DNA from: Candidatus Melainabacteria bacterium
Lineage (GTDB): Bacteria > Cyanobacteriota > Vampirovibrionia > Obscuribacterales > Obscuribacteraceae
Length of the DNA: 64,000 nucleotides
Direction of reading: 5' to 3'
Assembly (NCBI GenBank): GCA_003963305.1
Contig: RXJR01000001.1
Location: 248,001-312,000 of the forward strand
Shown: one piece after another, positions 40,342 through 61,534 of the stretch
How the letters are laid out: each line of letters opens with the position of its first letter
Numbering within the stretch: the first letter of the stretch is position 1
Program-made: the position numbers and the translations under genes
The notes under the pieces: generated by a model
What the model was told of the DNA's origin: nothing
The model's database searches: none
What the model saw: only the letters and a program-made list of their open reading frames with translations

Positions 40342-40342
40342 C

Positions 40343-42724: not shown

Positions 42725-42771
42725 ACGGGCTCAATTCTCCCGAAACGCACTACTCAGTCAGGAAATCACTC

Positions 42772-44793: not shown

Positions 44794-44913
44794 CGCAAAC
44801 ACCTCAAGTACTTTGCTATAGTGCACGGTTTTGCGCGCCGTGTCGCACCCAATATACCACGGGCTCAATCGCTCAAACACCGCCGAAAGGTGGACCATTG
44901 AAGCTCTTCAATT

Positions 44914-45086: not shown

Positions 45087-45695
45087 CTATTGAGGATTAT
45101 CACCCTTGCTTGACAGGTCTTCAAACCCAGCCACAAGAGCCATCGGTCTGCCGTCAGGGCCCATTACAGGTTGACCATTTTTGTCGCTCTTGTTACCGAT
45201 CAGATAGCGAAATTTGAAATTGACGGGACCGCTCGGTCCACTCTCTTCAGCCGAATGAATTGCCACCACTCCGCGCACATCCATCGGAATCAATCCTTTG
45301 GCATTAGGCTCGCTGGTGTTCACCTCGTCAATGCGGATTGCAGACAGTTGACGGGAGTCTGTCAAACTCTTAGCCTGGGCCGCCAGTTCATCCTGCGTAG
45401 CAGCCAACATGCCGTTTTTGGAGAGCACTTGCACTACAGGAGGTGCAAGCTCCTTTTCGATGAGAGCAAGCGTCGACTCTTTATAGCTGATGTAATTAGT
45501 ATCAAGTAAATGCTGGGTAACTGTGCGCGCAAAATTTTCGTAGTTAACTCGCTGATCTTTGGTGATAGTTTTGCCTGGGTTCGGGCGCGTAACAATCAGA
45601 AGAGCATTAAGGAGCACGCTGAAAATCAAAAGGACATGCACGCCGTACTGACGCACTAATTGATCGACGCTCGATTTTCTTACTCGCCAGTACAT
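45087..45695 (-). CDS. VirB8-like inner-membrane protein
   Basis: One N-terminal membrane helix ('VHVLLIFSVLLNALLIV', about 19-35) is followed by a ~165-residue periplasmic domain with alternating helices and strands of the kind seen in VirB8/TraE (NTF2-like) assembly factors. The sequence match is weak, and the call rests mostly on topology and on position next to VirB4-, VirB3- and VirB6-like genes. Its ATG directly follows the TAG of the preceding small gene. It is the last gene of the operon. Confidence 0.45.
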   Translation of the reverse strand: MYWRVRKSSVDQLVRQYGVHVLLIFSVLLNALLIVTRPNPGKTITKDQRVNYENFARTVTQHLLDTNYISYKESTLALIEKELAPPVVQVLSKNGMLAATQDELAAQAKSLTDSRQLSAIRIDEVNTSEPNAKGLIPMDVRGVVAIHSAEESGPSGPVNFKFRYLIGNKSDKNGQPVMGPDGRPMALVAGFEDLSSKGDNPQ

Positions 45696-46052
45696 CTACT
45701 GCAGCTCCACTTTACCCAGCACCCAATCATTATTGGTCTTATAGAAAGTCAATAGCGCACCACATTCGGTTTCACTATGTTGAGGCTGTTCACCCGACCA
45801 ATCCAGCGTTTGTATGCCGGTGACTTTTACTACTGCATCGGACTCTGTTTTCTTCACAACATCTGCTTTCGTCATCTTCGCGCGTGAATGCAGTTTCAGC
45901 CCCGGCCAGTCCCAGGTATAAATTTCCGCTCCCCAGGCTTGCGCCAGCCCCTGCAAGCGCATACGGCTCACTGACTGCAACGATACGAATACAATAATGA
46001 GTAATGCACAGAAACCGACGAACCATTTATTTGGGCGGAAGAGTTTTTCCAT
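45696..46052 (-). CDS. Small membrane-anchored protein of the T4SS-like operon
   Basis: A 118-residue protein with one N-terminal helix ('WFVGFCALLIIVFVSL') and a short external domain ending 'ALLTFYKTNNDWVLGKVEL', which resembles an NTF2-type strand pair. It abuts the VirB8-like gene with no gap, so the two products probably act together. No family name can be given. Confidence 0.55.
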   Translation of the reverse strand: MEKLFRPNKWFVGFCALLIIVFVSLQSVSRMRLQGLAQAWGAEIYTWDWPGLKLHSRAKMTKADVVKKTESDAVVKVTGIQTLDWSGEQPQHSETECGALLTFYKTNNDWVLGKVELQ

Positions 46053-46134
46053 TTCTACTCACACCCATCGGTCTCTACAAGCTTACTTTTAAAAGAAAGC
46101 AATTCCATAGGATAAACACTAGTCTTTTCTAGGA

Positions 46135-48933
46135 TCAGGATTCATGCTGCACGCCTAAATAATACACGGCTTGACGGCACGCGTCAGTTTCCGTCAGCTT
46201 CGGATTTTTCAGCTGCACTTCTTTGATCATGCCTTCGCGTTTCGGAATATCGTTGATAGGCTCGGAAGTACAGATCCAGTAGTCCATAGGGCTCGGCACC
46301 AATCGAATCGTACCGTGCACCGCGCCAACGATAAGCAGACATTGGCTGTCTCGGCGCTTCTCTTCGTCTTTGGAGAAGTTCTCAATCGAGACGACTTCTG
46401 CATCGGTCAATCGCAGCGTTTCCTTAAGCAGCTTCAAGTCACTGGGATCTTGCCGCAATATCAGTTTCATATGCGAGTTCTTCACGACCGAATCAGCTTG
46501 CTCAGACTGCCTGAAGAAGTCCTTCAACTGCTGCGTAATGGAGACGAGCATCATACCGTAGTGTCGGGCTCTTCGTGAAAGGTCATCGAGCAGCCTGGCT
46601 CCGGCTTTGAATCGCATCAGTGTTGCGGCTTCGTCTATGATGGCGGCGAAACGCATATTGAACGCCTTGCAATGAGCGGCTCGGCGCCGGATGAATTCTG
46701 CCAGAATAAATACGGCAATACGCTCCAGACGCGGCTCGTTCACTTCTCTTGTGTCGAACACGAGCAAAAGTTTTTCAGCGTCGATGTTGGTATGACCGTC
46801 TACAAGACCACCGAAGGCACCAGTTTTGGTGTACAACGATAGTCCACGAGCGAACATCTGCAAGCGGTCGCGCTGAAGCGGATCGACCTCATCGGCAGCC
46901 GCTTGAGCAGTCACTCTCGCCAGGTCTGACATAATCGGCACAGTGCCGCGGAAGTGTGCGTCCATGTACGCAACGCGTATCAATCCATCAAGAAGAGACT
47001 TCTCTTCTACGTTCAATTCCTCGCGACCTTCAGGCGCGAGCATCAAGTCTAGCAGCGACAAGAGCGAGCTTATCTTATCGGCAGAAGGTTCGCCTGCACG
47101 GCGCTTCTCGCCATCAGGCCCGTACTCCATTTGATCGTCGGCGCTCAAGTCGAACGGATTGATCATGTTTCCAGAGTTGGGACCAAGGTCGATGTAGTCA
47201 CTCAATTCACTACCGAGAATTTTGGTGATGAATCGATATGCACCTTTTTTGTCGACGGTTTTATCAATCAATACAAAGCGCGTGCCAAGCGGCAGCAGAC
47301 GCAAGATCAGCATGGAAACAGCGAAAGATTTACCGGCACCGGTAGTTCCTACAACGAACATGTTGTTCGCGTCTTTACCCGCGCCTCTGAAAAACGGATT
47401 GAGGAGCACAGGTTCTCGCGAGGCGATAGCGAAGCCAAACGGCACACCGTCTGGAGTTCCGCAACTGGCAGTGAAGAACGGCCAGAACGTTCCAACGATT
47501 GGTGACATGACACGATGAACGATGGCAAGTTTGTCCACACCCGAGGCGAGTGTAGATTGCCAGGCATCAAGCTGGAGAAGCTGTGCGCGGTCGAGAATAG
47601 CACCGCGGTTTTTGAAAACGCGCCGAATTTCGTCTGTGTTCTGAGCAAGACGTTCAGGGCTTTCTGCGCTGGTCGTGATGTACATGCTTATGTCGAAAGC
47701 TTTGTTCGAGCTGCGCAAAAACTCTTGAATAGCTGATGCTGCGCGTCTTGTCGATTCCAGACCTTCAAGGTCGGGAGTAGCAAGTTGTGTACTGGTGACA
47801 ACGCCGAGTCGATAGTTCATCTTCAGAGAGTTGCGGACTTTATCTTGATCGCATGTATGAATGAACATCGACAACGTGTACTCAACGCTGAGCGTGAGCA
47901 AGTCTACAAGCCATCCCATCCACGTTTCGTGAGGAGGCTGTTGCATGTATTGAGTGCCGATGAATCGTCCGTCCAGCCAGAGATGCTCATCAGCGACCTT
48001 CATGGCAGAACCGGCCAGACATGATGCTTCAGAGACACCGGCTCGGCTCGGCGGCGCCTCAGGCTCGCGTTGCGAGAGGCTTGGATTCAAATCTGAATAA
48101 AGCAAATTGCGCACTTCGCGTCGCGACAGAGTCACTGGTCGCAAGTTGGAGGCGCGCAACTGTTCCAAACATGTTTTAGTCAATCGATTGAGAGTCTCGA
48201 GATATTCCTCGTGTTTTTGAATCGATCGTCTGCCGTGCCACGGCTTTCCTGAAGAAGTTTTGCAATCAGGCGGTTGATAACTGACCACCACATAGAAGTC
48301 GCGCTGTGGAACGAAGTGAACGTCTTGTACGCGCCTGAACCACTTGTCGGTGTAGTCCGCGTACCATTTCAAGTAATCGTTCTCTGTCTTGATCAAAATC
48401 TGGTATCGCGACAGATATTCATCGACAGGCAGGTTTCGGGCTTTGATAATGACTTGAATGTCCGAATCGCAAGAATTGGCAAAGTGAGCGAAGTTACGCG
48501 CCATCATTTCGCGGTCGGCTTCATCGAACAGCAAAGCGTTTATGCCCTTGCAGATGATGTACCGGCGCATACTGCCGTCTGCCAGCACGACGAGACCTTC
48601 ATCTTGATCGTCGCCGGGAATCGAGTGCACGAAGCAGACATCTTGCCAACTCGTCTCGCCCCGCTTGTCTTTGGGCGGCTCTCCCCCTTCATCGTCAGCG
48701 CCGCCGCCACCACCGCCTGTGGTGCCGAAGGGCAAAAGCTCTCTTACCATTGGGGGCAAAGAGTTGTAGAAGCCGCCGATTACATTGTTCAGTGAAGGTT
48801 CAGGAGTAAGCGGAATTGTCCGTCCGCCGTCACCGTTTCCGTTTCCATTACCACCGGATGGCTTCGATTTACCTTTAGATGGGCGCGACGGAGCAGCTCT
48901 TCTGTTTGCTCTTGGTCGTGCTCCCTCTGCCAT
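46135..48933 (-). CDS. virB4: VirB4/TraC-family T4SS ATPase
   Basis: The VirB4 ATPase powers assembly and transport in type IV secretion. The 932-residue protein has Walker A 'FVVGTTGAGKSFAVSML' at about 524-540, Walker B 'FAAIIDEAATLM' at about 762, and the following 'SRRARHYGMMLVSITQQLKD' characteristic of VirB4 and related HerA-type ATPases. The N-terminal domain carries 'GLVVLADGSMRRYIICKGI'. Its N-terminus is Arg/Pro/Gly-rich and disordered. Two 14-base direct repeats lie just upstream. The length and motif order argue for an intact enzyme. Confidence 0.9.
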   Translation of the reverse strand: MAEGARPRANRRAAPSRPSKGKSKPSGGNGNGNGDGGRTIPLTPEPSLNNVIGGFYNSLPPMVRELLPFGTTGGGGGGADDEGGEPPKDKRGETSWQDVCFVHSIPGDDQDEGLVVLADGSMRRYIICKGINALLFDEADREMMARNFAHFANSCDSDIQVIIKARNLPVDEYLSRYQILIKTENDYLKWYADYTDKWFRRVQDVHFVPQRDFYVVVSYQPPDCKTSSGKPWHGRRSIQKHEEYLETLNRLTKTCLEQLRASNLRPVTLSRREVRNLLYSDLNPSLSQREPEAPPSRAGVSEASCLAGSAMKVADEHLWLDGRFIGTQYMQQPPHETWMGWLVDLLTLSVEYTLSMFIHTCDQDKVRNSLKMNYRLGVVTSTQLATPDLEGLESTRRAASAIQEFLRSSNKAFDISMYITTSAESPERLAQNTDEIRRVFKNRGAILDRAQLLQLDAWQSTLASGVDKLAIVHRVMSPIVGTFWPFFTASCGTPDGVPFGFAIASREPVLLNPFFRGAGKDANNMFVVGTTGAGKSFAVSMLILRLLPLGTRFVLIDKTVDKKGAYRFITKILGSELSDYIDLGPNSGNMINPFDLSADDQMEYGPDGEKRRAGEPSADKISSLLSLLDLMLAPEGREELNVEEKSLLDGLIRVAYMDAHFRGTVPIMSDLARVTAQAAADEVDPLQRDRLQMFARGLSLYTKTGAFGGLVDGHTNIDAEKLLLVFDTREVNEPRLERIAVFILAEFIRRRAAHCKAFNMRFAAIIDEAATLMRFKAGARLLDDLSRRARHYGMMLVSITQQLKDFFRQSEQADSVVKNSHMKLILRQDPSDLKLLKETLRLTDAEVVSIENFSKDEEKRRDSQCLLIVGAVHGTIRLVPSPMDYWICTSEPINDIPKREGMIKEVQLKNPKLTETDACRQAVYYLGVQHES

Positions 48934-48955
48934 TGTTTGATACCCGATGCGAAAA

Positions 48956-48989
48956 CTTGCGTGTTCTTAAATTGTCTTGCGTGTTCTTA
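48956..48989. promoter_or_regulatory. Two 14-bp direct repeats, 20-bp spacing, before virB4
   Basis: CTTGCGTGTTCTTA occurs at 48956-48969 and 48976-48989, a 20-base period, 23-56 bases upstream of the VirB4-like start codon. Identical sites two helical turns apart suggest binding by a tandem regulator or an RNA-level element. The 128-base gap is the longest inside the operon. Confidence 0.5.
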
Positions 48990-49061
48990 GAATAGCCTAT
49001 CCGAAGCGCCAGTTAAGCGATACTGGCATTTTGGCAGTTGAATTCTCGTTTTATCAGCCAT

Positions 49062-49454
49062 TTAGCGAGGGGCGGCTTGATCCTGAGCTTCAACGTAGTA
49101 CTGCTCGGTCTTCCTCTTACTTTCAATTATATTGGGATCTGGGTAAAGCGGTGCAGGTTCGGGCTTTGGCACAAAAAGGTTGGGCACGAGACCGAGTCGA
49201 TACATGACCATGTTCTTCCACCACAGCCAGGGCTTCACCTCTGACATTTTGCCCAGAACGATGGATGCTCCGACCACTGCGACGAAAACAAATACACCGG
49301 CAGGCACATTGTTAAACTTCCAGTCCTTGGGCATGTTGCTGGCTAAAAGCAGCCCGCTGATGATGGCAATGACGTGCATGATCAACTGAATCGGCGTAAA
49401 GTCGAAAATTTTGAGCGGCTTATTGAGAATAATGACCTTGTGAACTTGCGACAT
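49062..49454 (-). CDS. VirB3/PrgI-like membrane protein
   Basis: A 130-residue protein with two membrane helices ('QLIMHVIAIISGLLLASNM' and 'VPAGVFVFVAVVGASIVLG') and a basic linker before a Pro-rich tail. Size and two-helix topology directly before a VirB4 gene are typical of VirB3 and PrgI proteins, which help hold VirB4 at the membrane. The N-terminal 'HKVIILNKPLKIFDFTPIQ' resembles PrgI-type starts. The ATG is four bases after the DUF2225 stop. Confidence 0.6.
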   Translation of the reverse strand: MSQVHKVIILNKPLKIFDFTPIQLIMHVIAIISGLLLASNMPKDWKFNNVPAGVFVFVAVVGASIVLGKMSEVKPWLWWKNMVMYRLGLVPNLFVPKPEPAPLYPDPNIIESKRKTEQYYVEAQDQAAPR

Positions 49455-49458
49455 TTAT

Positions 49459-50088
49459 CTAATTACCTTCATTCTCGAACCTTATCGACTCGAGGCTGGA
49501 TGCCTCTGCCAGCCGCATGAGCTTTCTGGCCATATAGGCATATTTCGCGGAAAGTCGAGGAATAGCCTGCCTGAAGTGCATTTTGCTCGCCTCGAAATCG
49601 CCGGAGCGCCGGAGTAACTCACCTACTAGATATTCTATTTCCATACGCTGGTCGACGGGACACGAAACGTCGAAAAGAGACTTTTTGAAGGAATCAGCCG
49701 AGAGCCTCCGATACTCCCGAGCCTGAGGATAAGCGCGATTGTCGTCGGCACACCAGGCGGCATGCAAATAGAGCAACCCGACGTTGTAGAAGTCTCTGCC
49801 GCTTCTCTCCGCAGCCAGTGCGGCAGCACGAAACTGCAAGTGAGGCGTGGAGTTTGGCTGTTGCAGCGTCACTACTTCCTGGGTCGGCTCGAATCGTGCC
49901 GTCCAATCAGCTCGGCCACAGCTCGGGCAGGTGCAAACAGTGTACGGTTCATACTGTTCAGCCCGGCCTTCGAAGTCTTGCCTTAGTTCGCTGTTGCGTC
50001 GACCCGTGTCGATGGTGACAACGAGCTGGCGGGAGTTGAATTTAACCCCACAGCTTGGGCATTTGACTGCGATGTCTGCTAAGTGCAT
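49459..50088 (-). CDS. DUF2225-type zinc-ribbon and TPR-like protein
   Basis: The N-terminus carries two CPxC pairs (C10/C13 and C54/C57) that would bind zinc, and the ~140 residues after it are helical ('FYNVGLLYLHAAWCADD', 'YLVGELLRRSGDFEASK'), matching DUF2225, a widespread bacterial family of unknown role. The frame opens at a GTG (50112), which lies inside a hairpin, so the ATG at 50088 is preferred. Being in the same operon and four bases from the VirB3-like gene, it may be a cytoplasmic helper of the secretion system. Confidence 0.7.
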   Translation of the reverse strand: MHLADIAVKCPSCGVKFNSRQLVVTIDTGRRNSELRQDFEGRAEQYEPYTVCTCPSCGRADWTARFEPTQEVVTLQQPNSTPHLQFRAAALAAERSGRDFYNVGLLYLHAAWCADDNRAYPQAREYRRLSADSFKKSLFDVSCPVDQRMEIEYLVGELLRRSGDFEASKMHFRQAIPRLSAKYAYMARKLMRLAEASSLESIRFENEGN

Positions 50089-50103
50089 TCTTTCTTCGTC
50101 AGC

Positions 50104-50124
50104 CCCGCTCACCGGGTGAGCGGG
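50104..50124. promoter_or_regulatory. 9-bp hairpin at the DUF2225 start
   Basis: CCCGCTCAC-CGG-GTGAGCGGG is a perfect 9-bp stem with a 3-base loop, 16 bases upstream of the ATG at 50088 and covering an alternative GTG start. It could tune translation or mark an RNA processing point between the giant VirB6-like gene and the rest of the operon. Confidence 0.45.
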
Positions 50125-50143
50125 TCAAGCGCGAATTTTCCTT

Positions 50144-50155
50144 GTCCACGTGGAC
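50144..50155. promoter_or_regulatory. 12-bp perfect palindrome GTCCACGTGGAC
   Basis: The palindrome lies in the 136-base gap between the VirB6-like gene at 50225 and the DUF2225 start. It contains a CACGTG core. A dimeric regulator site is possible, but a single copy has limited weight. Confidence 0.3.
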
Positions 50156-50224
50156 GATGATACGGATTTAGCTGAATTATGCAACCAGGTTAACCCTAGT
50201 CGTATTCATCAAGACTGTCAGGCT

Positions 50225-53200
50225 CTAGGCTTCTCCTTCGTTATTTTGTCCTTCTTGATATTCGGCCCATGACTCTTTCAGCAGTTCCTGCTGGCGTTTC
50301 CGCTTTTCATCATCAGTGACATACCCACCCTGCTTGGCATTCATATCAAGGGCGCCTTTCCTGATTACTGGTCCTTCAGGCGGGTGCTCCTGCGGATGCT
50401 GACCCTGTTGCGGTGGTTTTGGCACAGGCTTACCGCCACCGGCACCAGGCTGAGGTTGCTGCTGACGAGGTCGCATCGCCGGTACGGGCACGAAAGCGTT
50501 TAAACCGCCTGATGGCTTAGGCTGGCCACCGCCTGGCTGAGCAGGACGGCTGTAGTAGTCAGCTGATGACGTCGGATGATTCGCCGTCTCGGCGTGACCC
50601 TGGTAGCCCCAATCTTGCGGTTGAGCACGAGCGTGCTCGATCGGCTCCGGCTCGTGATGATGCGTATGCGGCGTCTCGTGGTGCACGACCGCGTCGCTGG
50701 GCAGGGCCGCGTTGGCAAGGAACTGATTCTCGACCGAACCGTATGACTGCCCATAACTGGTCGGGCTTTCGACACGGGTCTCGAATCCACCGCCGCCGCT
50801 CGAGCCGCCACCAGAGCCGCCGCCCGATTGGTCGAAGGCAACGTTCTGATATTGCTGCTGCTGCGGATACTGCGGATACTGCGGCTCTTGCTGATATGCA
50901 GTTTGCTGCTGCGCATTCAGCTGTTGCTGGCCGTAGTAGTCTTGCTGCTGCTGCTGAATAGCTTGTTGCTGCGCGAGTTGCTGTTGTTGAGCATAGTCTT
51001 GCTGCTGCTGAATCAGTTGCTGCTGTTGCTGCTGCGCAAAATTCTGCTGATCTTGCTGCTGTTGTTGAGCGGCATATTGAGCGTACTGTTGCTGAATCTG
51101 CGCTTGTTGAGCGTATTGGCTCTGATCGGCGAACTGTCGCTGATCGTATTGTTGTTGCTGCTGCGCTTGTTGCTGCGCGGCAGAAGTATCAACACGATAT
51201 TCATTGCCGCCACCTCCACCCTGAGCCGGAGCCCATGTGTGAGAAGTGCTGTCGTAGCTGTAAGCGACTGGCTGACCGTAGCTTCCTGCACCAGCCCATG
51301 TCTGAGCAGAAGTGTCGTAGTAGACACTACCATTGGTGCCTGAGGCGAAGTAAGTGCCACCACCATCACCCGACGTTCCCGGCGAGTAATAGACTGGTGC
51401 CTGATTGCCCGCAGAAGCATAAGTGCCCGTGGATGTATCGTACACTACCGCACCGTTAGTGCCGGCGGCACTCCATCCCTGACCACCACCTTGTGTCTCG
51501 CCGTAGACGAGCGGTTGTGTGGTGCCTGATGCTTCGAACCGGTGGTTCTGTTGATCGTAGGCAACAGTGTAGTTCGAGTTGGCAGCATACCACTGGTCAC
51601 CGGTGGCGGTGACACTCTGTCCGCCAGCCTGGAACGACTGAGAAGCAGCGTTGTACTGAATCTGATTGTCGTAAGAGGAGTACGTGCCGGTCTGCGAGTT
51701 ATATTGTAGAGCTGCGCTTGAACCAGTAGCCTCCAGCTGTTGGCTCTGAGGATTGTAGACGACTTGATTGCTCGTGTCGTTGGCATACCACGTACCGTTG
51801 GAGTACGAGACTGCCGCACCACCGGCTGGTCCGCTACCAGCAACTTCAAACGAGTTTTTGGCGTTGTCGTAGTAGACCTGTCCACCGGCAGCGACATACG
51901 TGCCGCCACCGTAATCACTGGTGGCGCTGTACGAGACTGGCGCACCGTAGTTGGAACCAGCCATATACAGATTGTTGTCAGCCGTGTTGAGCACAACGGA
52001 ACCGTTCGAGCCGGCGCCGTACCACTGACCATCTGTACCTGTTTGCACAGGCGCACCGGTAGTGGTGCTAACGAAGCTGTTCTGATCCTGGTTATAACGA
52101 ATGGCGCTGTCATTTTGAGCAGTATATGTATTACCGTCATAATTCAGAGCCACACCCTGCGGTGTGATGAATCCGCCGGCGTTCTGGTCGTATACGACAT
52201 TGCCACCGCTGTTGGATGTATACCAGGATTGACTACCGTTATCGTAAGTAACAGGTACTGATCCATTAGCGCTCGGAGCGACCCAATCGCCGTTGGCACC
52301 CATAGTGATGCCGTTTGGCACACCCTGAGCGTTCGTGGCTTGCCACTGATGCGTTTCGGCATTGTACATGGCCATCGGCGTACCTGATGTCGAGCTCAAG
52401 GCGTAGACATCACTGCTTGGTGTAAACCCGTTAGCGAAGCCTCCCTGAGCGTTGATCATGCCGGCGCCGAGCGGGTTGCCGCTTGCGTCGACCAGATTCA
52501 TATTGGCCAGGTTGGTACCGGTTGTATTAGCCAGCCCATCGAAACCGTTGGTCGGCAACAGCTGCATTGAGCCGTCTGCGATCATCTGAGCAAACGAATT
52601 GTTCATCGGTTGACCGGTAGTCGGATCATATGTAATGCCGGGGCTCATCGTCGGGTCGGAACCTGGCAAACCATTCAGCGCCATGCTGTTCAGGTTGGTC
52701 AGATTCGTATTCGAGAAGTCGATCGGTGCACCGGTCAGGTTGTTGGTCAGAGTACCGTCAGGACTGAAACCAAGTGCCGGCATGCCGTCTGGTCCCAGCT
52801 GGCCCGAGGCGAACTGTTGCACAGCGCTCATGTCAGCAGCGGATAGACCTGATGATCCCTGGGCGTACATCTGTTGAGCATCCATCGCCAGCGCACCGAG
52901 CGCGCGCGAAGTCTGCGGGTCGAGCCCGTTTATACCCTGAGCACCTTGCTGGGCAAGTTGCGCCAGAGCTCTCGGGTCGCCGTGCTGAAGCGCGTTCATC
53001 GCACCAGCCAACTCACGATGAGCGGCACTATTTGGATCGTTCATACCGTTCTGCAAGTTATGCAAGGCATTCGGGTTGACCTGCAGATGACCGTTATTCA
53101 TGTGCAAGCCGAGTGAATTGGCGCCCTGGCTCAGTGCATTAGCACTGAAATCACCACCACCTGGATGCCCGGCACCAAGGCCGGCATTGCTTGTCGATGC

Positions 53201-55144
53201 GAAAGTGAACGGAGATGAGCCGCCCGCGAATGAAGCAGGCAATATGCCGCCGTCATTTCCATGACCGCCTGGCAAACCGCCCGTCGGACTGCCCGCTGGA
53301 CCGCTGATGCCTGGAGGCAGCCCTGCTTCCTGACCGACACCGAGGGCACCGGAGCCCGGCATGCCTCCGTGGTTGGCAGTGAGCGCGGTATTACCAGTGC
53401 TGAGGCTACTGGCCAGCGGCATTCCGCCGTGGTCTCCAGTCAGGCCTGGTATGCCCGAGGCGTTCCCCATGACACCAGAATGTGCATTCTGAGCCGAGGC
53501 TGTGCGCAAGGCAGAGTTCAGACCAGCGGCGCCAGCAGGATGAGCACCAGCTGTCGTTCCGCCCGGATGCGCTCCGGCTGCTGTCGCACCGGCATTGGCA
53601 CCCGGAGCACCAGCCGTGCCACCATGACCACCGGCACCGCCTGCAGCGGCAGCTCCGCCTTGCATGGCTTGCTGAACGGCGTTGGAGACGCCGCTGGCAC
53701 CTCCCTGACAGACCAGAGAAGTGAAGTCGAACGCATACTTGACGCAAACGTTTGCCAGGAAGTTCAAGGCAGACATGATTACAGTACCGGAGTCACCGAC
53801 ACCGCGGAAGCATGCCATCAGAAGCACGGTCGTATTCCAGAACAAGCTCCAGAAACAGAGTGTCACAACACCCTCAATCCAGCTTGGCAGAGCGCCTCTT
53901 AGACGCTGCATCGGCCAGACCCAGAGAGCCGCGGCGATCGGTCCCATGCACCACAAGTAATAGAGGAACGCCATCTGAAATGCGCACATAACGTTCCAGG
54001 TGCCAGTCAAACCGGCATTGGCACCGTTCATCATCAAACGCGTAATTTTCTTGGCGTCGCGCACTCGTTCGTCAGGAGTTCTAGTTCTGTCGATTTTGGC
54101 GCAAGGGTCGTATTGACGTAAGTTCAAGGTCAGAGCTTCATAAGGATCCCAGGCAGTGTTGCCCTGTCCGTTAGGCGGATTTTCACCGGCGATAACGGCG
54201 TTATCGTTTCTATCGGATGGGTTGACCGGGAAAGCTCTCTTCTGAGCGCACTGAGCATCTTCATACATATCTGATCCGAAAATGCGCTTGTACTCATCGG
54301 CAATCGTAAACGTGATCGAGTTGGATACGTCGATACCGTAGTTGATGACGAGGAAAGTAGCGGGAATCAAGAAGATGGCGATGATGGACCGCAAGATACC
54401 CTCGAAAGGATTGGTATCACCCAATACTGGCGAGCCCTGCGAAACGATTGCCTTGACTTGAGCGAGAACTGCGCCTGGCAGCAAGAGCAGAATTGCCATC
54501 GGAATGAACAACTGATCGCGAATTTTCTGCCAGCGGTTACCGGCTTCGGCCGTGAAGTTGGTCAAATACTTCTTAGTAAAGTCGATAGCGCTTTGAGCCT
54601 GGTTGACTGATGCCGAAGCAGCACTGTTTGCAGCCGAGGTAGCCTGCATACCTGCTGTAGCGGTGCTTGCCCACATGATCTTTTCTGGGTCGAAAGCTTG
54701 CTCCAGCATTCTGTTCTGGTTGTAACGCTGAATTACCTGAAACTGTGTGTCTGAAACCGGGTAACCAAACGTTTTGAACATGTCGTCGTTGACCATTTCG
54801 TCACGCTTTGTCGGCACTTGCGACGTGGCAGTCGGAATGGATATGGGCCAGCTAAACACAGGACCAGACTTACTGTGAATGACGTTACCCGGACCCATAG
54901 ATTTCTTATCTTGAATCTTGTCGTGACCGCCCATTTCAGTCGGTCCACCTTCACGGGCGGCGGGGAATCTCTGGAAGTACATTTCACGCTGGTAAGCTGC
55001 GTAACCGGGGTTGACGTCGAGGTCACCTGTAGTGTTGCCGGCCGCTGGCGCAGCACTTGCGCTCAGCCCGGGCACCGCATATGCCACCATCAACAGCGCA
55101 AGGACTCTTAAAATCAGAGTAGCGGCCGTTCTTTTGACGTTCAT
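50225..55144 (-). CDS. Giant VirB6-like polytopic protein with repeat and poly-Gln tail
   Basis: A signal-like N-terminus precedes a region shared with the neighbouring paralogue ('SDTQFQVIQRYNQNRMLEQ', 'FDPEKIMWAST'). A VirB6/TrbL-like membrane domain follows (about 190-480): 'FIPMAILLLLPGAVLAQVK', 'GILRSIIAIFLIPATFLVI' and later helices ending in 'LMACFRGVGDSGTVIMSAL'. The rest (~1,100 residues) is a Gly/Asn-rich linker, then many ~22-residue Tyr units of the form VxY(D/N)xxxxx(F/Y)xAxG, then a poly-Gln stretch and a Pro-rich end. VirB6 forms part of the inner-membrane channel. At about 1,640 residues it is several times the usual length. AGGAAAG before the ATG at 55144 sets the start. Confidence 0.7.
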   Translation of the reverse strand: MNVKRTAATLILRVLALLMVAYAVPGLSASAAPAAGNTTGDLDVNPGYAAYQREMYFQRFPAAREGGPTEMGGHDKIQDKKSMGPGNVIHSKSGPVFSWPISIPTATSQVPTKRDEMVNDDMFKTFGYPVSDTQFQVIQRYNQNRMLEQAFDPEKIMWASTATAGMQATSAANSAASASVNQAQSAIDFTKKYLTNFTAEAGNRWQKIRDQLFIPMAILLLLPGAVLAQVKAIVSQGSPVLGDTNPFEGILRSIIAIFLIPATFLVINYGIDVSNSITFTIADEYKRIFGSDMYEDAQCAQKRAFPVNPSDRNDNAVIAGENPPNGQGNTAWDPYEALTLNLRQYDPCAKIDRTRTPDERVRDAKKITRLMMNGANAGLTGTWNVMCAFQMAFLYYLWCMGPIAAALWVWPMQRLRGALPSWIEGVVTLCFWSLFWNTTVLLMACFRGVGDSGTVIMSALNFLANVCVKYAFDFTSLVCQGGASGVSNAVQQAMQGGAAAAGGAGGHGGTAGAPGANAGATAAGAHPGGTTAGAHPAGAAGLNSALRTASAQNAHSGVMGNASGIPGLTGDHGGMPLASSLSTGNTALTANHGGMPGSGALGVGQEAGLPPGISGPAGSPTGGLPGGHGNDGGILPASFAGGSSPFTFASTSNAGLGAGHPGGGDFSANALSQGANSLGLHMNNGHLQVNPNALHNLQNGMNDPNSAAHRELAGAMNALQHGDPRALAQLAQQGAQGINGLDPQTSRALGALAMDAQQMYAQGSSGLSAADMSAVQQFASGQLGPDGMPALGFSPDGTLTNNLTGAPIDFSNTNLTNLNSMALNGLPGSDPTMSPGITYDPTTGQPMNNSFAQMIADGSMQLLPTNGFDGLANTTGTNLANMNLVDASGNPLGAGMINAQGGFANGFTPSSDVYALSSTSGTPMAMYNAETHQWQATNAQGVPNGITMGANGDWVAPSANGSVPVTYDNGSQSWYTSNSGGNVVYDQNAGGFITPQGVALNYDGNTYTAQNDSAIRYNQDQNSFVSTTTGAPVQTGTDGQWYGAGSNGSVVLNTADNNLYMAGSNYGAPVSYSATSDYGGGTYVAAGGQVYYDNAKNSFEVAGSGPAGGAAVSYSNGTWYANDTSNQVVYNPQSQQLEATGSSAALQYNSQTGTYSSYDNQIQYNAASQSFQAGGQSVTATGDQWYAANSNYTVAYDQQNHRFEASGTTQPLVYGETQGGGQGWSAAGTNGAVVYDTSTGTYASAGNQAPVYYSPGTSGDGGGTYFASGTNGSVYYDTSAQTWAGAGSYGQPVAYSYDSTSHTWAPAQGGGGGNEYRVDTSAAQQQAQQQQQYDQRQFADQSQYAQQAQIQQQYAQYAAQQQQQDQQNFAQQQQQQLIQQQQDYAQQQQLAQQQAIQQQQQDYYGQQQLNAQQQTAYQQEPQYPQYPQQQQYQNVAFDQSGGGSGGGSSGGGGFETRVESPTSYGQSYGSVENQFLANAALPSDAVVHHETPHTHHHEPEPIEHARAQPQDWGYQGHAETANHPTSSADYYSRPAQPGGGQPKPSGGLNAFVPVPAMRPRQQQPQPGAGGGKPVPKPPQQGQHPQEHPPEGPVIRKGALDMNAKQGGYVTDDEKRKRQQELLKESWAEYQEGQNNEGEA
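50840..52380 (-). repeat. In-gene Tyr/Gly unit array and poly-Gln tract
   Basis: From about 52380 down to 51190 the VirB6-like gene encodes repeated ~22-residue units with Tyr-Asp/Asn and Ala-x-Gly landmarks; from about 51180 down to 50840 it encodes runs of Gln broken by Ala and Tyr. At DNA level the second part is a CTG/TTG-rich slippage-prone tract. Confidence 0.75.
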
Positions 55145-55181
55145 ACAATCTTTCCTCATCTCTGGCATCTCGGGGCGAATG

Positions 55182-58007
55182 TTAAGCGTAGGCTGTGGGT
55201 GGAGGGGTCTGGTCATTGTTCCCCTGTGGAGGAGGGGTATCGATCGGCGGACTACTGCTAGTTCTTCCGCCTGAGTTCGAGTTGCCCGTGTTGCTGGCTG
55301 CCGCCAACGTCGCCACCTGTATCGAAGAATCGCCAGAGCCACCACCACTAGTGCCACCACCAGTGCCGCCGCTCTGTTCTTGCAAGCCGCCTGCGTCTTG
55401 CGCACCGCTTATCGGTGGGCTAGACATAGCAACCATATTGGCGGAGCCACCGCCATCGTTTCCGCCTCCAGTGTTACCATCGCTGGTAAGAGGTGCTTCT
55501 ACGCCGAGGCTCGCCATCGTGCTCTGTGCTTCAGGCATGGCGTTCTGTACGTCGCCAGTCGAAGCATTAGTATTCACTGCCATGGTCGCACCGTTGGAAG
55601 GTGTAAGAGGAGTCGACTCGGCCATGGGTGTGACCGGAATCGTCGGGTTTTCACTTTGTGCAAGTGCAAGATTTGCATTGTTGCCGGCCGCTGACTCGCT
55701 TGTCGGCGGCTGACTTGTTGTAGGTTGACTTTCCGTACTGACTGGCGCATTCGCAGCCGGAGCAGCGGCAGCGAAGTTGGCGCTTGGCGGCGGCGTCACG
55801 TTTGCATTTGCCATATTGGCATTGCCGGTGCCCGGACTGGTGCCGCCCGAGTTAGTCATACCGGCCATAGAGCCGGTGCCCTGATACAAGCCGGAACCAG
55901 TACCGCTCGGACCGTTAGAAGCAATGGCAAATTGTTGGGCCACTTGCTGCATCGGTTGCAGAGCCTGATTAATCTGACCCTGCATCGCCTGCACTTGTTG
56001 AGCAGGCATGCCACCGGCTTGAGCGGCGGAGCCCATGGCGCCAGACGCTCCCTTCATCATCTGTTGACCGGCAGCGTTAGCGGTCTCAAATGCTGCGGCA
56101 GGGTCGAAACTCCATGGATTGAATGGAACCCACATCATCAAACCGAGCAAGCAGGTAAACACGGCCACTTCCCATTGCAGGTTGCTGGCGCCACCCGAAT
56201 CCTGGATATAAAGGATGCGCTGAGTCATGATCGCCAGCAGAACCATCCAGTAGAATCGCCAGAGCGACACGACGATGACGGCGTTAACCCAGTTGGAAAA
56301 AACGTCTGTGAACAACTTCTGCGATGACTGCGCTTGAATGCGAGGCCAGGCGAAGAAAGCTGCGGCTAACGGTCCAAGCAGATAGAGATAGCATACGAAG
56401 ACGAGCTGATACGCCCCCAACACTATGACTGCCGACGAGAAGAGATACGTAGCCATATTGAACGCCGCTTCCATTGCGGAACTCAACCATGACTGGTTCT
56501 CGTAGATTGTTTGCTGCTCCGGAGTATCGCTACCCAGACCCTCCCCTGATGCACCAAGGAAACTGGCGAGAGAGTTGAACCCGCTCTGCAGAAAACCACC
56601 CACGATCGGTATGCTGCCGAGGAATCCGCTGATGCTGCCCAGGAAACCGCCGCCTTGAGCGGCGCCTCCGTTCTGCCCGTTGGCACCGTTATTTCTGGCA
56701 GCCCCCGTGGCATTGATAGTGTTGTTGTTCTTATCGATGGGAGTGTTGTAAGTGAGTTCTCTCGACCAGTCGAAGATCAGTTGCAAATCAACCCAGTCTT
56801 TGACGCTATAGGCCATCGAGTTGCCCACGTCAATCGAATAACTGACTATAAGCTGAGTAGCCGGAATCAAAAACACAGCGATTACAGATCGCAAAATGCC
56901 TTCAAATGGGCTCGATTGGTCTTCGGCATTGAGCCTGAAACCCTGGACGATCTGACTCTTAACCTGAGTCATAACTGCGCCCGGCAGCAAAAAGAGAATA
57001 GCAAGAGGCACGAAAACGAACTTGTACATCTGCTGAACCATCCAGACAGCCTGTGGCACTGTCTTGTACGGATTGTCAGCGGCAGTAGGCACACCCGACT
57101 GCTCGTTAGCGATGTTGATCAGGGCTCCGACAGGTGCACCACCGGCGCCACCAGCGCCGCCTCCGGCACCGTTACCGCCGCCGCCGTCAGCCTGCACGAT
57201 ACGCGCAGTGGCTTGTTTGAAAGCAGCTTCAGAAGAGCCGGCCAGAACGTTAGCCAGTGAAGCCGTTTGCAACTGACCCTGAATGGTAGAGGCCCAGTAG
57301 AAGCGTTCCGGGTCGAAAGCAAGCTCCAGCATACGCTGGTTATTTTCGCGATCGATCATCTGAAACTGAGTATCAGAGCAAGGCAATCCGAATGTAGTAA
57401 GACAATTTTGGAAAAGCTCGAGGTCGCGCATGGTCTTTGGTTGATCCATGGCTTCCAGTTTTGGCTGCTCATATTGTATGAGCGAATCGCCCTGACTCGC
57501 ATACTGCGGTTGGTGCAGCGGATCGGCGCCAGGCAGGTAGTGACCGGGCTGACCGAAAGGCTTGACCATGATGTCGTAAGCCAGTACTTTGACCGCATCT
57601 TTCTCTGTGGTCAACTTTGACTTTTTGATATTTGCTTCTGTGCCGCCTGCAGAATTGCCCGTGCCTGCTCCTGCCGTTGCGGCTCCTGTAGTCTGGTTGC
57701 GACCTGCCCCGGCTGTACGGCCGTTGCCATCGCCGGTATCACCATTGCTCTGACCGTTGAGAATCTTCTCGAGCGTGTCGCGATTCCAGGCTTCCTGCAT
57801 GAAAGGAAAACGCTTTCCATAGCTGACGCGAATGTTGTAGGCAGTGTTCGGATTGACGTCATCAATCTGCCCCTGGGCGTTAGTAACAAGGTCATTAGGA
57901 GCGGCAAAGCCTGCGGTCGCTGTTCCCATCATGAGAGCCACAGCCGGCAAAATCCCCCCGAGGGCTTTTTTGAAGTCCAGGCTCTTAGTAAGTGTGGGTG
58001 TGTTCAT
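55182..58007 (-). CDS. VirB6-like polytopic protein, paralogue of the downstream giant
   Basis: A 941-residue protein with a signal sequence ('AVALMMGTATAGFAAPND'), then the block shared with the next gene: 'SDTQFQMIDRENNQRMLEL' and 'FDPERFYWASTIQGQLQTA'. Membrane helices include 'FVPLAILFLLPGAVMTQVK', 'GILRSVIAVFLIPATQLIV' and 'MEVAVFTCLLGLMMWVPFN'-like segments, as in VirB6/TrbL. The last ~270 residues are Ala/Gly/Pro/Ser/Thr-rich and disordered. The two paralogues lie 37 bases apart. A duplicated, diverged channel subunit is the simplest reading. Confidence 0.7.
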   Translation of the reverse strand: MNTPTLTKSLDFKKALGGILPAVALMMGTATAGFAAPNDLVTNAQGQIDDVNPNTAYNIRVSYGKRFPFMQEAWNRDTLEKILNGQSNGDTGDGNGRTAGAGRNQTTGAATAGAGTGNSAGGTEANIKKSKLTTEKDAVKVLAYDIMVKPFGQPGHYLPGADPLHQPQYASQGDSLIQYEQPKLEAMDQPKTMRDLELFQNCLTTFGLPCSDTQFQMIDRENNQRMLELAFDPERFYWASTIQGQLQTASLANVLAGSSEAAFKQATARIVQADGGGGNGAGGGAGGAGGAPVGALINIANEQSGVPTAADNPYKTVPQAVWMVQQMYKFVFVPLAILFLLPGAVMTQVKSQIVQGFRLNAEDQSSPFEGILRSVIAVFLIPATQLIVSYSIDVGNSMAYSVKDWVDLQLIFDWSRELTYNTPIDKNNNTINATGAARNNGANGQNGGAAQGGGFLGSISGFLGSIPIVGGFLQSGFNSLASFLGASGEGLGSDTPEQQTIYENQSWLSSAMEAAFNMATYLFSSAVIVLGAYQLVFVCYLYLLGPLAAAFFAWPRIQAQSSQKLFTDVFSNWVNAVIVVSLWRFYWMVLLAIMTQRILYIQDSGGASNLQWEVAVFTCLLGLMMWVPFNPWSFDPAAAFETANAAGQQMMKGASGAMGSAAQAGGMPAQQVQAMQGQINQALQPMQQVAQQFAIASNGPSGTGSGLYQGTGSMAGMTNSGGTSPGTGNANMANANVTPPPSANFAAAAPAANAPVSTESQPTTSQPPTSESAAGNNANLALAQSENPTIPVTPMAESTPLTPSNGATMAVNTNASTGDVQNAMPEAQSTMASLGVEAPLTSDGNTGGGNDGGGSANMVAMSSPPISGAQDAGGLQEQSGGTGGGTSGGGSGDSSIQVATLAAASNTGNSNSGGRTSSSPPIDTPPPQGNNDQTPPPTAYA

Positions 58008-58043
58008 TATATTTCTACCTGAAATGGGTATGCATCGCGCTTT

Positions 58044-59921
58044 TTACTGTTTTCGACTCATTTGTATCGTCTTGCCGCCCTCTGAGAGACTGACTGCCAA
58101 TCTATCGTTCCAGGGGCGTCCAAAAATCGTGATCGTTCCTTTCACTTCAGAATTAGGCTGCACCATTGTCTGGTCGAAGTCAGCTCTTACGGCTGCTTCT
58201 GAAAGTTTGTGGTTGCCTTCAGAGATGGAGATCACATCGGGGCTAAAGCTGAAGCTATTAGCACTGCCGTTTCTAATGCTCACGGTCAAAATCGACTTAC
58301 GAGCAGTGACGTTAACGTTTTTGAGTTCGAAGCTAATTCCGTTTGGAGCCAGGGGCACGGGCTCACTAGAAGCGGTGCTTTCAGATGCTTCAGGAGCGGG
58401 AGACAGGTCGGCTGTCTTCTCTCTTGAGGCACTGGAGTCTTTCTTTCCTTTTTTCTTTGTCTCTTTCTCCTTTTTTGTGTCAGCCGGTGCAGAAGCCACT
58501 TTGGTTTCCGTCAGCGCTGGTGAGGCTTTCTTCTTTTCGTTGCCGCCGCCACCACCGAAGTGGAACAAGCCGAACATGCCGCCACCTGAATTTCCAGATT
58601 TGGAATCTGAAGAATCACCACCTGATGATGCCAGGGCATCATTGGTAGGCGTCACGCCCGAGACCTTGCTGATAATGAACTTGGCGGCTTGCGGTCCTGC
58701 AATCATCGACAACTCAGTTTGGGCAGACTTCATATCGTCTTTGGCCGAGTCAACATCAGATTGAGCCTGAGATTGATCGGCTGCGGCGCGCTGTCGCTCT
58801 GAGTCAGAGCTGGCCACTTCCGCTTCTTGTTTCCTGGCAGCTACGGTCTGTTGGGCAAGGGCATATTTGTTGTAGCTGTAAAGATAACGATAGTAAGCTT
58901 GAACAAGGTCTGATTGTACTTTTCGAACAGGTTGCAGAATGCGTTTGTCGAGCGAGTTATTTTTGAAAACTGCATCGACCTGTCTTTGCGAAATCGAGAA
59001 GCTGCCTCTCGTCGCTTCGCCGGGCAGACCGATGTCTACCTGACCGAGCTGCGAGGCGAATTTCTCGTCTTTCATCAAAAGTGACATGGCGTTGCTCTTC
59101 AGAACACCGTTCCATAGAGCTTTCAAATCATCACGCTGCTTGTATGCGGAGCGAGCCTCCATACCAGTCGGAGTTATGGGCACGAAGTTGGCGCGCCTCT
59201 TCTCCTGGACGCTACCGCCCTCATCATCATCGGCAGACGAACGAGGTCCTGTGGCAAATGGACTGCCTGAAGGTCTGGCCAGCGCCACCTGAGGAGCGGG
59301 CGGAACCATGGCCTGCATGTTTTGCATCGGGTAAGGAATCGCATATGGATTCATATATGGATTCGCATACATAGCAGCTGGGTCCATCGGCATGCCGGCC
59401 GGCATTCCGATATTTGCTTGCGTCGACAATGTCACTGCCGGTGGTGGCGGCACGAGCCCACCGCCGACACCGCCTCCTGGCGGTGGTCCTGGAACACTGG
59501 TGCCTCCATAGGTCATGGCAGAAGGCGCACTGCTTGAAGATCCGCCGGTCGGCACAGGTATAGGAGAAGCACCTGACTGATTGGCGGGAGTAAATATAGG
59601 ACCGTTCGAGTTGGCGACTTCTTCAGCTGGTGGCGCGATTGGATCCATCGACACCTTGGGCAACACTCTGCCCATGCCGTCTGCACTGACCTGATTGTCA
59701 GCTCTCTGAGCGGCAGCCTCGAGGGCCTTCTGTTTTTCGAGTCGCGCTTGCTCTTCCAGTCGCATGCGTTCAACCACAGCCGGGTCGGTTTTCGGTCTCA
59801 AGCTGCCGAGAATACCAGCTCCTGGTTGCGAAACAGTTGCAGCCGAATTTCCTCCTCCGCCCTGCTGCGCACAGCCGGCCAGAAAAATTGATGAAATCAG
59901 CAGTAACTCTTTTAAGCGCAA
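58044..59921 (-). CDS. Pro/Gly-rich lipoprotein of the T4SS-like operon
   Basis: The N-terminus 'LLLISSIFLAGCAQQ' has a lipobox with likely lipidated Cys17. A Pro/Gly-rich region (about 110-235) includes 'MNPYAIPYPMQNMQAM' repeats. A charged helical region follows ('LAQQTVAARKQEAEVASSD', coiled-coil-like), then a Lys/Gly stretch, and the C-terminal ~95 residues form a beta-sandwich-like domain ('ISFELKNVNVTARKSILTV', 'VKGTITIFGRPWNDRL'). It may act as the outer-membrane-side lipoprotein of the machine, a role VirB7/VirB9 fill elsewhere, but the sequence shows no clear homology. The start is a TTG with AAAGG six bases upstream. Confidence 0.55.
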   Translation of the reverse strand: MRLKELLLISSIFLAGCAQQGGGGNSAATVSQPGAGILGSLRPKTDPAVVERMRLEEQARLEKQKALEAAAQRADNQVSADGMGRVLPKVSMDPIAPPAEEVANSNGPIFTPANQSGASPIPVPTGGSSSSAPSAMTYGGTSVPGPPPGGGVGGGLVPPPPAVTLSTQANIGMPAGMPMDPAAMYANPYMNPYAIPYPMQNMQAMVPPAPQVALARPSGSPFATGPRSSADDDEGGSVQEKRRANFVPITPTGMEARSAYKQRDDLKALWNGVLKSNAMSLLMKDEKFASQLGQVDIGLPGEATRGSFSISQRQVDAVFKNNSLDKRILQPVRKVQSDLVQAYYRYLYSYNKYALAQQTVAARKQEAEVASSDSERQRAAADQSQAQSDVDSAKDDMKSAQTELSMIAGPQAAKFIISKVSGVTPTNDALASSGGDSSDSKSGNSGGGMFGLFHFGGGGGNEKKKASPALTETKVASAPADTKKEKETKKKGKKDSSASREKTADLSPAPEASESTASSEPVPLAPNGISFELKNVNVTARKSILTVSIRNGSANSFSFSPDVISISEGNHKLSEAAVRADFDQTMVQPNSEVKGTITIFGRPWNDRLAVSLSEGGKTIQMSRKQ

Positions 59922-59939
59922 GCGAACCTTTCCCTCACA

Positions 59940-60617
59940 TTATTTCCGCAGAAGCGAACCGCGAACCATTGACTCCGTTCGACTGGCACTGCCACCGTAT
60001 CCGGCACCAGAACCGTTTCCGTATCCGCCGCTGTAAGTAGCAGCAGCCGGGCCGTTGTAATTTCCGTTAGACCTGCCGGTCGAAGGCGCCATGCCATGTG
60101 GAGCACCGGCACCGGCTCCTGACGCTTTGTTCTGATTGAGCATTTTGCCGTTCAAGCCGTTGGTGCTGAAACCAGATGGCAGCATACCTTTCGGCCCCAT
60201 ACCGCGAGCCGGAATGTTAGTGCCGCCGAATCCAGACTTCGGCAGAGCCCCCATCGGCTCACTCGGAGTTCTGTATCCCTGGTTGCCGCCCAGAGGCATG
60301 CCACCAGCCGGAATTGTGCTTCCGGGACCACCGGCTAGAGCTCCGGCTCCGTTGCCACCATATCCACCACCAGAACCAACCGGTCCTGGAGGCAGCTGGA
60401 TCTGTTGAGGCATCACAGGTGCTTCACGGAAGTCGCGAATAATCGGTCTGTCGTCGATGATTTGAATTTCTCTGGGAGCCACATGCCAGGTCGATTTTTC
60501 AGTTGCATTCTTTGACACTGTGCCCTGCGCCCAGGCCGGAGCAACCGCACTCAAAGCGCCAACGCAGCTGAAACTCAGCACCGCTAGACTGTAAATTTTG
60601 AATCTGGAAACTGTCAT
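59940..60617 (-). CDS. Gly/Pro-rich secreted protein (a)
   Basis: A signal peptide (about residues 1-31, ending 'APAWAQ') precedes a ~195-residue Gly/Pro/Asn-rich mature part with 'GGGYGGNGAGALAGG' and 'GYGNGSGAGYGGSASR' segments. A short 'IQIIDDRPIIRDFREAPVM' near the start is the only ordered-looking part. AAGGAG seven bases before the ATG at 60617 decides the start. It may be an exported substrate or a surface fibre component of the machine encoded downstream. No family recognised. Confidence 0.55.
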   Translation of the reverse strand: MTVSRFKIYSLAVLSFSCVGALSAVAPAWAQGTVSKNATEKSTWHVAPREIQIIDDRPIIRDFREAPVMPQQIQLPPGPVGSGGGYGGNGAGALAGGPGSTIPAGGMPLGGNQGYRTPSEPMGALPKSGFGGTNIPARGMGPKGMLPSGFSTNGLNGKMLNQNKASGAGAGAPHGMAPSTGRSNGNYNGPAAATYSGGYGNGSGAGYGGSASRTESMVRGSLLRK

Positions 60618-60655
60618 ACTAAACTCCTTGCCTTTGCCCATGCGCCATTTGCCAT

Positions 60656-61534
60656 TTAAAAATTGATACCGGCATAACTGCCGGCTGAATTTATCGGTCT
60701 GAGAATCGCCCGCTTGACGCTTCTACCTAACCTTTTACCCACTGTGTTGTTCTGACCTGGTCTCTGGTAGGCGAAATCGTCTTCCGGCAGTGAAAGATCT
60801 TGAGTGGTCGCCTGGTTTACAACAACCGGTTGCGGCGCTTCAGGAGCCGCATTCACATCTGCTTTAGGGTTGAGACGAGGCTCTTTACCCATCGCCCGGA
60901 GTTGTCGCTCTGCGTCTGTGGGAGCGGCTCCGCCCATGCCTGGAGCACCGCCGGAAGAGTAATAATCGGAGTTCGGTGGAGCTGGGGTGTTGGCTTTGTA
61001 ATAGCCATGACTGGCGCTCTGACCAAAGCTGCCCGGGTCGTAGTGATTGTAGTGCTGGTGGCTTCCTTGATATGAAGGAGCCGATCCGCCGCCGCCAGAC
61101 ATGCCTGGAGCTGATGCACCTCCATAAGATTGACCACCGCCACCGGCTCCTCGCCAGCCGCCGCCGCCAGTCGCTCCACCAGCCCAGCTGCTCTGAACAG
61201 GCAGGTCGAGCCGCTCAGGAAGCGGAGGAAAACCAGCTGGAGGAACAGGTTCGTCAGCTGCAATCGGGTCTAGAGAAACATCAGGCTTGAACGGGCGTGG
61301 TGTTGGTGTCCAGCCTACATAGCCGCCACCACCACCTGTCTGAACTGGAGCTGACATCTGAGGTGGAAGCGCATGTCGTGAAGCCTGAGCTTGTGAACCG
61401 TACTGATTATCGCCAGGTTGATGCACCCACTTGCCCATGTTCGTCGGGGGAAGTTGAGTGTATGCAGGGGGCATTACTGCTCCTGCCAAAAAGATTAGAG
61501 TTGCTGCCACGAGCGGCGCACGCTGTACTTTCAC
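60656..61534 (-). CDS. Gly/Pro/Tyr-rich secreted protein (b), first gene of the T4SS-like operon
   Basis: A signal peptide ('RAPLVAATLIFLAGAVM') is followed by Gly/Ser/Tyr-rich sequence ('GGGWRGAGGGGQSYGG', 'HYNHYDPGSFGQSASHGYY') and a basic C-terminus 'VGKRLGRSVKRAILRPI'. The GTG at 61534 has GGAGGG six bases upstream and is preferred over the GTG at 61573. It is the promoter-proximal gene, next to the candidate promoter at 61715-61742. Function unknown; an exported component or substrate is likely. Confidence 0.55.
   Translation of the reverse strand: MKVQRAPLVAATLIFLAGAVMPPAYTQLPPTNMGKWVHQPGDNQYGSQAQASRHALPPQMSAPVQTGGGGGYVGWTPTPRPFKPDVSLDPIAADEPVPPAGFPPLPERLDLPVQSSWAGGATGGGGWRGAGGGGQSYGGASAPGMSGGGGSAPSYQGSHQHYNHYDPGSFGQSASHGYYKANTPAPPNSDYYSSGGAPGMGGAAPTDAERQLRAMGKEPRLNPKADVNAAPEAPQPVVVNQATTQDLSLPEDDFAYQRPGQNNTVGKRLGRSVKRAILRPINSAGSYAGINF

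Follow-up and report, generated by a model that had tools for sequence, protein, structure and literature searches.

A chromosomal type IV secretion-like operon of Obscuribacterales and separately encoded VirB6-type pairs

Gene content of the operon

We analysed a 64,000-nucleotide stretch of DNA (the window) from a Candidatus Melainabacteria bacterium, which carries at positions 45087-61534 an operon resembling a type IV secretion system (T4SS). The window belongs to contig C1 of a draft genome (G000) with a size of 7.48 Mb and a completeness of 95%. Close matches to it are found in metagenome-assembled genomes of Obscuribacterales, an order of non-photosynthetic Cyanobacteriota, with Candidatus Obscuribacter phosphatis among them; a few matching genomes carry other taxonomic labels and are probably misnamed. 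The ten consecutive minus-strand genes (g1 to g10) reported here by an initial annotation, which was made from the sequence alone, are real open reading frames, and comparison of gene order with relatives, a check that the annotation had asked for, found all ten collinear in nine other genomes from different genera, which makes the operon more than a chance arrangement. Two further relatives keep the set without g6, two without g4-g6, and one without g9-g10.

The VirB4 ATPase is encoded by g8 (46135-48933). The protein matches the NCBIfam models for CD1110-type VirB4 (6.9e-59) and TraC-F (4.6e-49), in all cases under these models' own equivalog cut-offs, as well as Pfam P-loop_TraG (8.6e-14); its Walker A motif, GTTGAGKS, is invariant in 15 orthologues, and a search of PDB sequences retrieved the solved VirB4-like structure 4ag5 at 2e-14. 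The product of g10 (45087-45695) retrieved only chance matches from PDB sequences, such as ubiquitin chains. Its AlphaFold model, built from 40 sequences with a mean predicted local distance difference test score (pLDDT) of 87.6, contains one transmembrane (TM) helix, an alpha region and four strands. Foldseek ranked pKM101 TraE and Brucella VirB8 highest for this model (E 5e-4 to 7e-4; TraE/VirB8 5.4e-4), and in VIA-align ranks 1-25 are all occupied by the VirB8 family (Z 14.4 to 11.0), with unrelated NTF2 folds beginning at 10.4. On the strength of the model, g10 is firmly predicted to be a VirB8 with an NTF2-like periplasmic domain. The ratio of nonsynonymous to synonymous substitution rates (dN/dS) is 0.026 for VirB4 and 0.038 for VirB8, indicative of strong purifying selection, and these values are rough because synonymous sites are near saturation. 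Between the two genes lies g9 (45696-46052), encoding a small single-TM protein with a short conserved domain that is kept in this position in more than 40 loci and that, judged by eye, is possibly a second, shortened NTF2-like subunit.

Assignment of g7 (49062-49454) to the VirB3/PrgI type is based on its two TM segments, its position directly before VirB4 in intact loci, and its relatives: Pfam PrgI is matched by 13 of 30 orthologues (best 5.3e-4; the window's own g7 is not among the 13), and the g7 profile matches the corresponding protein of a second T4SS in the same genome, described below as system B. We consider the VirB4 and VirB8 identities firm and those of VirB3 and VirB6 good. Profile alignment of g10, g7 and g3 with F-type TraE, TraL, TraK and TraB gave nothing significant, with three sequences each, probably too few.

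The two largest proteins are encoded by g4 (55182-58007) and its paralogue g5 (50225-55144). According to hydropathy each has five TM segments, with a loop of 123-137 residues between TM2 and TM3 (137 in g4). A long C-terminal tail follows in g4; in g5 a signal and the five TM segments fall within the first 500 residues and precede a low-complexity tail of about 1,100 residues. The same kind of topology is described for Agrobacterium VirB6. A five-TM model of VirB6 has been presented (PMC2653234). Neither protein matches Pfam TrbL; the g4 profile matches the VirB6-like protein of system B with 96.5% probability (E 7.9e-10). For residues 1-500 of g5, AlphaFold gave a poor model from 13 sequences (pLDDT 59), yet its first two Foldseek ranks are R388 VirB6 chains (E 0.11 and 0.15). 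In VIA the top three are again R388 VirB6 (Z 8.3, 8.1 and 8.0, the next being 6.5), aligned over 205-214 residues, about 80% of VirB6. Helical bundles can reach Z values of such size by chance, so the VirB6 assignment depends jointly on topology, context and ranking. A structural search had been named beforehand as able to overturn the description of these proteins as two VirB6-like paralogues; the description survived it.

The remaining genes agree with their first description as two Gly-rich exported proteins, a lipoprotein and a DUF2225 protein. The proteins encoded by g1 (60656-61534) and g2 (59940-60641) have Sec signals and orthologues in the same places, 33-50% and 30-58% identical, respectively; neither belongs to a family, g1 having found no match in a domain search while possessing a conserved C-terminus. 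The lipoprotein g3 (58044-59921) has a LAGC lipobox, a coiled-coil region that is OEP-like, and a C-terminal Ig-like DUF4352 domain. In Pfam, DUF4352 is found in 13 of 15 orthologues (best 6.9e-5) and OEP in 10 of 15 (best 3.9e-4), which are weak matches; the OEP match of the window's own g3 is 0.0025, and a PDB sequence search gave nothing convincing. From these similarities, g3 is a candidate for an outer-membrane or periplasmic part. Finally, g6 (49459-50112) encodes a cytoplasmic zinc-ribbon/TPR protein with a DUF2225 domain (Pfam 3.2e-11). A DUF2225 gene is also found beside VirB3 and VirB4 of system B (2.3e-7). Adjoining the operon, at 43363-44898, are genes for two exported paralogues, 215 and 243 amino acids long, of which the second has no Pfam match.

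Chromosomal fixation and missing conjugation genes

VirB4 of the operon type (A-type) is present in 38 of the 39 Obscuribacterales genomes sampled, our own included; it was found in none of 21 genomes from other families of the class and in none of 385 further Cyanobacteriota at E 1e-60. Downstream of the operon most relatives encode ribE, ribBA and ribH, while the window's own genus has other genes between; in this genus the interval separating the T4SS from the riboflavin genes contains Tad-type pilus genes (TadE-like and von Willebrand TadG-like, identified by eye at 40277-43299). Upstream, synteny delimits a divergent operon of the order TPR-TPR-TM-TM-TrbI-domain-ubiX, beginning with a plus-strand TPR gene at 61946-63802 and running past the window. 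It is kept in the eleven relatives examined, its small TM genes having been missed by gene calling in some of them. VirB4 proteins of plasmids are only about 22-24% identical to g8, no plasmid encodes anything resembling g5, and IMG/VR viral contigs contain no relative of VirB4 or g5. We therefore rejected carriage by a prophage or virus on the IMG/VR result, and a mobile element on the fixed synteny and distribution. By these comparisons of sequence and gene order, the operon T4SS is chromosomally fixed and vertically inherited.

The absence of VirB9, VirB10, VirB11, VirD4 and a relaxase, as first reported, is correct within the window and has one qualification just outside it. A secreted protein with a TrbI (VirB10-like) domain is encoded 2.4 kb past the right end, in the conserved divergent operon. 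All 11 of 11 orthologues match TrbI (best 2.5e-5, under the Pfam cut-off), and by eye the protein shows a signal sequence and nothing else that would serve as a TM anchor. Similarly weak TrbI matches are common across the class, occurring in most genomes; the match alone is thus no proof of VirB10, and we refer to a VirB10-like domain.

Relaxase, VirD4 and VirB9/VirB10 genes beyond the window had been named in advance as signs of an ordinary conjugative element. Of the 40 genomes searched for VirB9 (CagX), 39 lack it, our own among them, and in the exception it belongs to a separate cluster. In one genome (G004:C1:51418-156782) two clusters of classical VirB9, VirB10 and MOBP relaxase genes are probably integrated or plasmid conjugative elements. 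No VirD4 was recognised in the operon or its 20-kb flanks, and one is encoded at system B, on another contig. The locus has no integrase and no relaxase; in a search that covered MOBP and no other MOB family, the only matches in our genome were on contigs C26 and C9. No VirB11 ATPase is encoded in the locus; no genome-wide search was made for it, as pilus ATPases share the family.

These results bear on two other explanations. An ordinary conjugative element, or the remnant of one, would account for the family relationship of VirB4 and for MOBP relaxases elsewhere in the genome. It is very improbable given the fixed position, order-wide vertical inheritance, the lack of relaxase, VirD4 and integrase in the locus, and the lack of a close plasmid relative. 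A DNA uptake (competence) system like Helicobacter ComB would fit a conserved, chromosomal VirB4/6/8 core with no VirD4 at the locus, ComB also being devoid of VirD4 and VirB11. ComB does, however, possess VirB7, VirB9 and VirB10 (PMC12857230), and with no VirB9 here we regard this explanation, on a comparison of T4SS components, as quite improbable. Of the suggestion of a non-conjugative exporter or surface organelle, the word non-conjugative is upheld for this locus, which has fixed synteny and encodes no relaxase or VirD4. The host is diderm, as the lipoproteins had suggested; Omp85 is present in the genome, and the class is diderm with lipopolysaccharide genes (PMC4040986). The initial picture, a T4SS-type machine that has VirB3/4/6/8 but is devoid of the classical core in the outer membrane, stands.

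That picture describes the locus rather than the cell, as a second T4SS with VirD4 is encoded on contig C15 (L033:4092-18387 and L034:7296-15984). System B comprises a VirB4 that is 31% identical to that of the operon (system A), DUF2225, VirB3-like and VirB8-like proteins, VirD4, Replic_Relax, a large VirB6-like protein and exported proteins. It is order-wide and apparently chromosomal, most of the set being syntenic in nine other genomes. Its VirD4 (T4SS-DNA_transf, 2.2e-16) is present in 35 genomes of the order. Exported proteins, VirB6, DUF2225, VirB3, VirB4 and VirB8 are collinear in the two systems; unlike A, B has VirD4 and Replic_Relax, a single VirB6, and no recognised g3-type lipoprotein. 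Profile alignment pairs g4 with VirB6-B (96.5%), g7 with VirB3-B (74%, 2.8e-5) and g10 with VirB8-B (65%), with no comparable cross-pairing. In a small VirB4 tree with five references, from which the cyanobacterial class C of mating-pair formation (MPF) systems was left out, A and B group as sisters (support 86) to the exclusion of FATA, F and a Myxococcus plasmid. The best model for g8 is CD1110-type, yet this five-reference tree places A and B outside F and FATA. Systems A and B look like descendants of one ancestral system.

It is conceivable that the two systems share parts, with VirD4 of system B feeding substrates to the operon engine. The presence of this VirD4 in so many genomes, the collinear paralogy, and the lack of VirD4 at A speak for such sharing. 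System B, on the other hand, has its own VirB3, VirB4, VirB6 and VirB8 and so does not need A; we find sharing somewhat unlikely.

Several loci with related genes were also noted. Extra A-type VirB4 genes, 59-65% identical, occur at L046:13699-16335 (G025:C276), on G034:C99 and on G030:C391, and the single such region examined has no T4SS gene around it. In the other family of the order (G036, L050:3238-12661) the operon contains two tandem g5-type genes and no recognised g6. A lone membrane-anchored protein 20 kb left of the window (L036:103-822, G000:C1:228103-228822) resembles, by eye, the VirB8-like protein of system B. A leaderless LysM protein (38246-39589) was considered as a linked substrate and rejected: it has only four matches in the genome, one of them near a VirB6-type pair outside the operon, which shows no association.

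VirB6-type pairs outside the operon

A search of the genome with the g5 core returned exactly 14 places, which are seven g5-type and seven g4-type genes lying side by side. The pairs are on contigs C1 (the operon), C3 (194172-196627), C9 (386926-388844), C11 (163028-164880), C20 (88731-90689), C22 (180745-183070) and C24 (138385-141397). The tandem paralogues first described in the operon are thus one pair of seven, something that could not be seen from the window by itself, and the other six are orphans on other contigs, with no T4SS gene recognised nearby; on C24 the two genes are divergent, not tandem. Across the order, g5-type copies number from one to eight per genome among strong matches. 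OmpR-type regulators are encoded directly beside two orphan pairs (C20 and C9; L139:5618-6298 and L140:13324-14070), and sensor kinases near others. As two adjacent cases among 68 such regulators in the genome, a regulatory link is suggestive and post hoc, and we did not adopt it.

Members of a pair have diverged in step. Across 34 pairs, the distance matrix of the g4 proteins correlates with that of their g5 partners at r 0.81, a value reached by 0 of 2,000 shuffles and to which shared species history contributes. Within our genome alone, where species history cannot contribute, r is 0.88 (exact p 0.0018). The orphan g5 proteins form a single clade (support 100), from which it follows that the orphan type arose once and then multiplied; as judged from the tree, it is one ancient clade that split from the operon type long ago. 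The membrane cores of orphans have invariant residues in common with the operon pair. Two of the orphan pairs have a relative in G001; for these, dN/dS is 0.018 and 0.064 in the g5 cores, and the tails diverge more. Tails differ widely between orphan pairs, and several g5 tails end in a shared helical repeat-like stretch. No toxin-like C-termini were seen on g5 tails by eye; no family search was made.

In two draft genomes, G007 and G034, g7 comes directly after g3: the operon pair g4-g5 has been lost from an operon that is otherwise complete, with VirB4 and VirB8 intact, and g6 is missing from one genome and degraded or divergent in the second. The VirB6 pairs found in both genomes are of the orphan type, which is the best evidence, if indirect, that orphan pairs can serve the machine. 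The orphans might instead have left the T4SS and now be independent membrane or surface proteins, with no exchange of modules. Their ancient split from the operon type, the wide differences between tails and the absence of machine genes beside them speak for this. Strongly constrained cores that share invariant residues with the operon pair, the persistent pairing of g4 and g5 types, and two genomes with orphan pairs only argue against it, and we judge it unlikely.

A proposed machine and its relation to known systems

We propose, with a probability of about 0.68, that the operon encodes a domesticated T4SS, fixed in the chromosome and passed on vertically, which is non-conjugative and has interchangeable VirB6 modules. 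Sequence and structure comparison shows an inner-membrane engine of the VirB3, VirB4, VirB6 and VirB8 type. In this machine VirB4 would power assembly or transport through a VirB6/VirB8 channel, and g4 and g5, being paired and duplicated together, would act as one functional unit. The six orphan pairs could serve as alternative VirB6 modules, letting a single engine take up varying stalk or channel subunits with their differing long tails, probably as conditions change. The outer membrane may be crossed without VirB9, perhaps via the g3 lipoprotein and the TrbI-domain neighbor, and the exported product is probably a protein. A coupling ATPase might be dispensable, as it is in Ptl-like systems, or system B might lend its own. 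A more specific arrangement, in which one T4SS engine in a diderm is combined with separately encoded, interchangeable VirB6 pairs, of which a genome has one to eight and each confers a different channel and tail, and with a non-VirB9 outer element, is put forward tentatively, at somewhat less than even odds.

Several points weigh against this proposal. The argument from G007 and G034 rests on two draft genomes. The structural match to VirB6 comes from a low-confidence helical model, and the route across the outer membrane is guessed at from domain matches that are weak. Moreover, judging by the number of TM segments, the long tails would be cytoplasmic, except if exported in the way described for Anaplasma (PMC7648143).

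The nearest precedents are the chromosomal T4SS of Patescibacteria (PMC12102498) and the Rickettsiales machines with extended VirB6 paralogues (PMC2653234, PMC7648143). The former is likewise chromosomal, phylum-wide there, with a VirB4/VirB3(PrgI)/VirB6 core near MPF-FATA and mostly no relaxase. It belongs to another phylum and envelope type, its VirB8 mostly escapes detection and its description includes no expanded set of orphan VirB6 pairs, whereas Obscuribacterales are diderm with a clear VirB8. The Rickettsiales (rvhB6a-e; Anaplasma virB6-1 to -4) also equip one vertically inherited machine with several extended VirB6 proteins whose flanking or repeat regions vary and whose long tails can be surface-exposed (PMC2653234, PMC7648143). 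They have four or five VirB6 copies, mostly arrayed with virB3-virB4, and VirB8-VirB11 and VirD4 are present, in contrast to 14 proteins in seven pairs, six of them orphan, and no VirB9 here.

The likeness to minimal Gram-positive systems that was pointed out at first is partial. Gram-positive MPF-FATA systems (CD1110-type VirB4, PrgI, and PrgL/TraH as VirB8-like protein) share the VirB3/4/6/8 set, the best VirB4 model and the absence of VirB7, VirB9 and VirB11, while the operon is not mobile, is in a diderm, has no relaxase or VirD4 in the locus and no VirB1 lysozyme, and its VirB4 is only about 22% identical to plasmid copies. Within the same class, a T4SS with a proposed role in predation was reported for Vampirovibrio chlorellavorus (PMC4451040), but it is T-type, partly plasmid-borne with relaxases, and has another class of VirB4.

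A 2025 review assigns a VirB7/9/10 outer-membrane core to all T4SSs that work in Gram-negative species, and it describes extended VirB6 proteins as having no known role (PMC12857230). Our literature search, which did not cover most subscription journals, found no T4SS in Obscuribacterales and no description of orphan VirB6 pairs, a layout in which many members of the order, the window's genome included, keep extra pairs elsewhere. A diderm order that keeps a T4SS without VirB9 throughout offers a test of whether the outer-membrane core is obligatory. The orphan pairs, together with genomes that lack the operon pair, make VirB6 variation testable, namely whether it sets the choice of export or the docking target. 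A whole order of environmental bacteria would thereby gain a cell-contact or export machine that is not mentioned in the literature we found.

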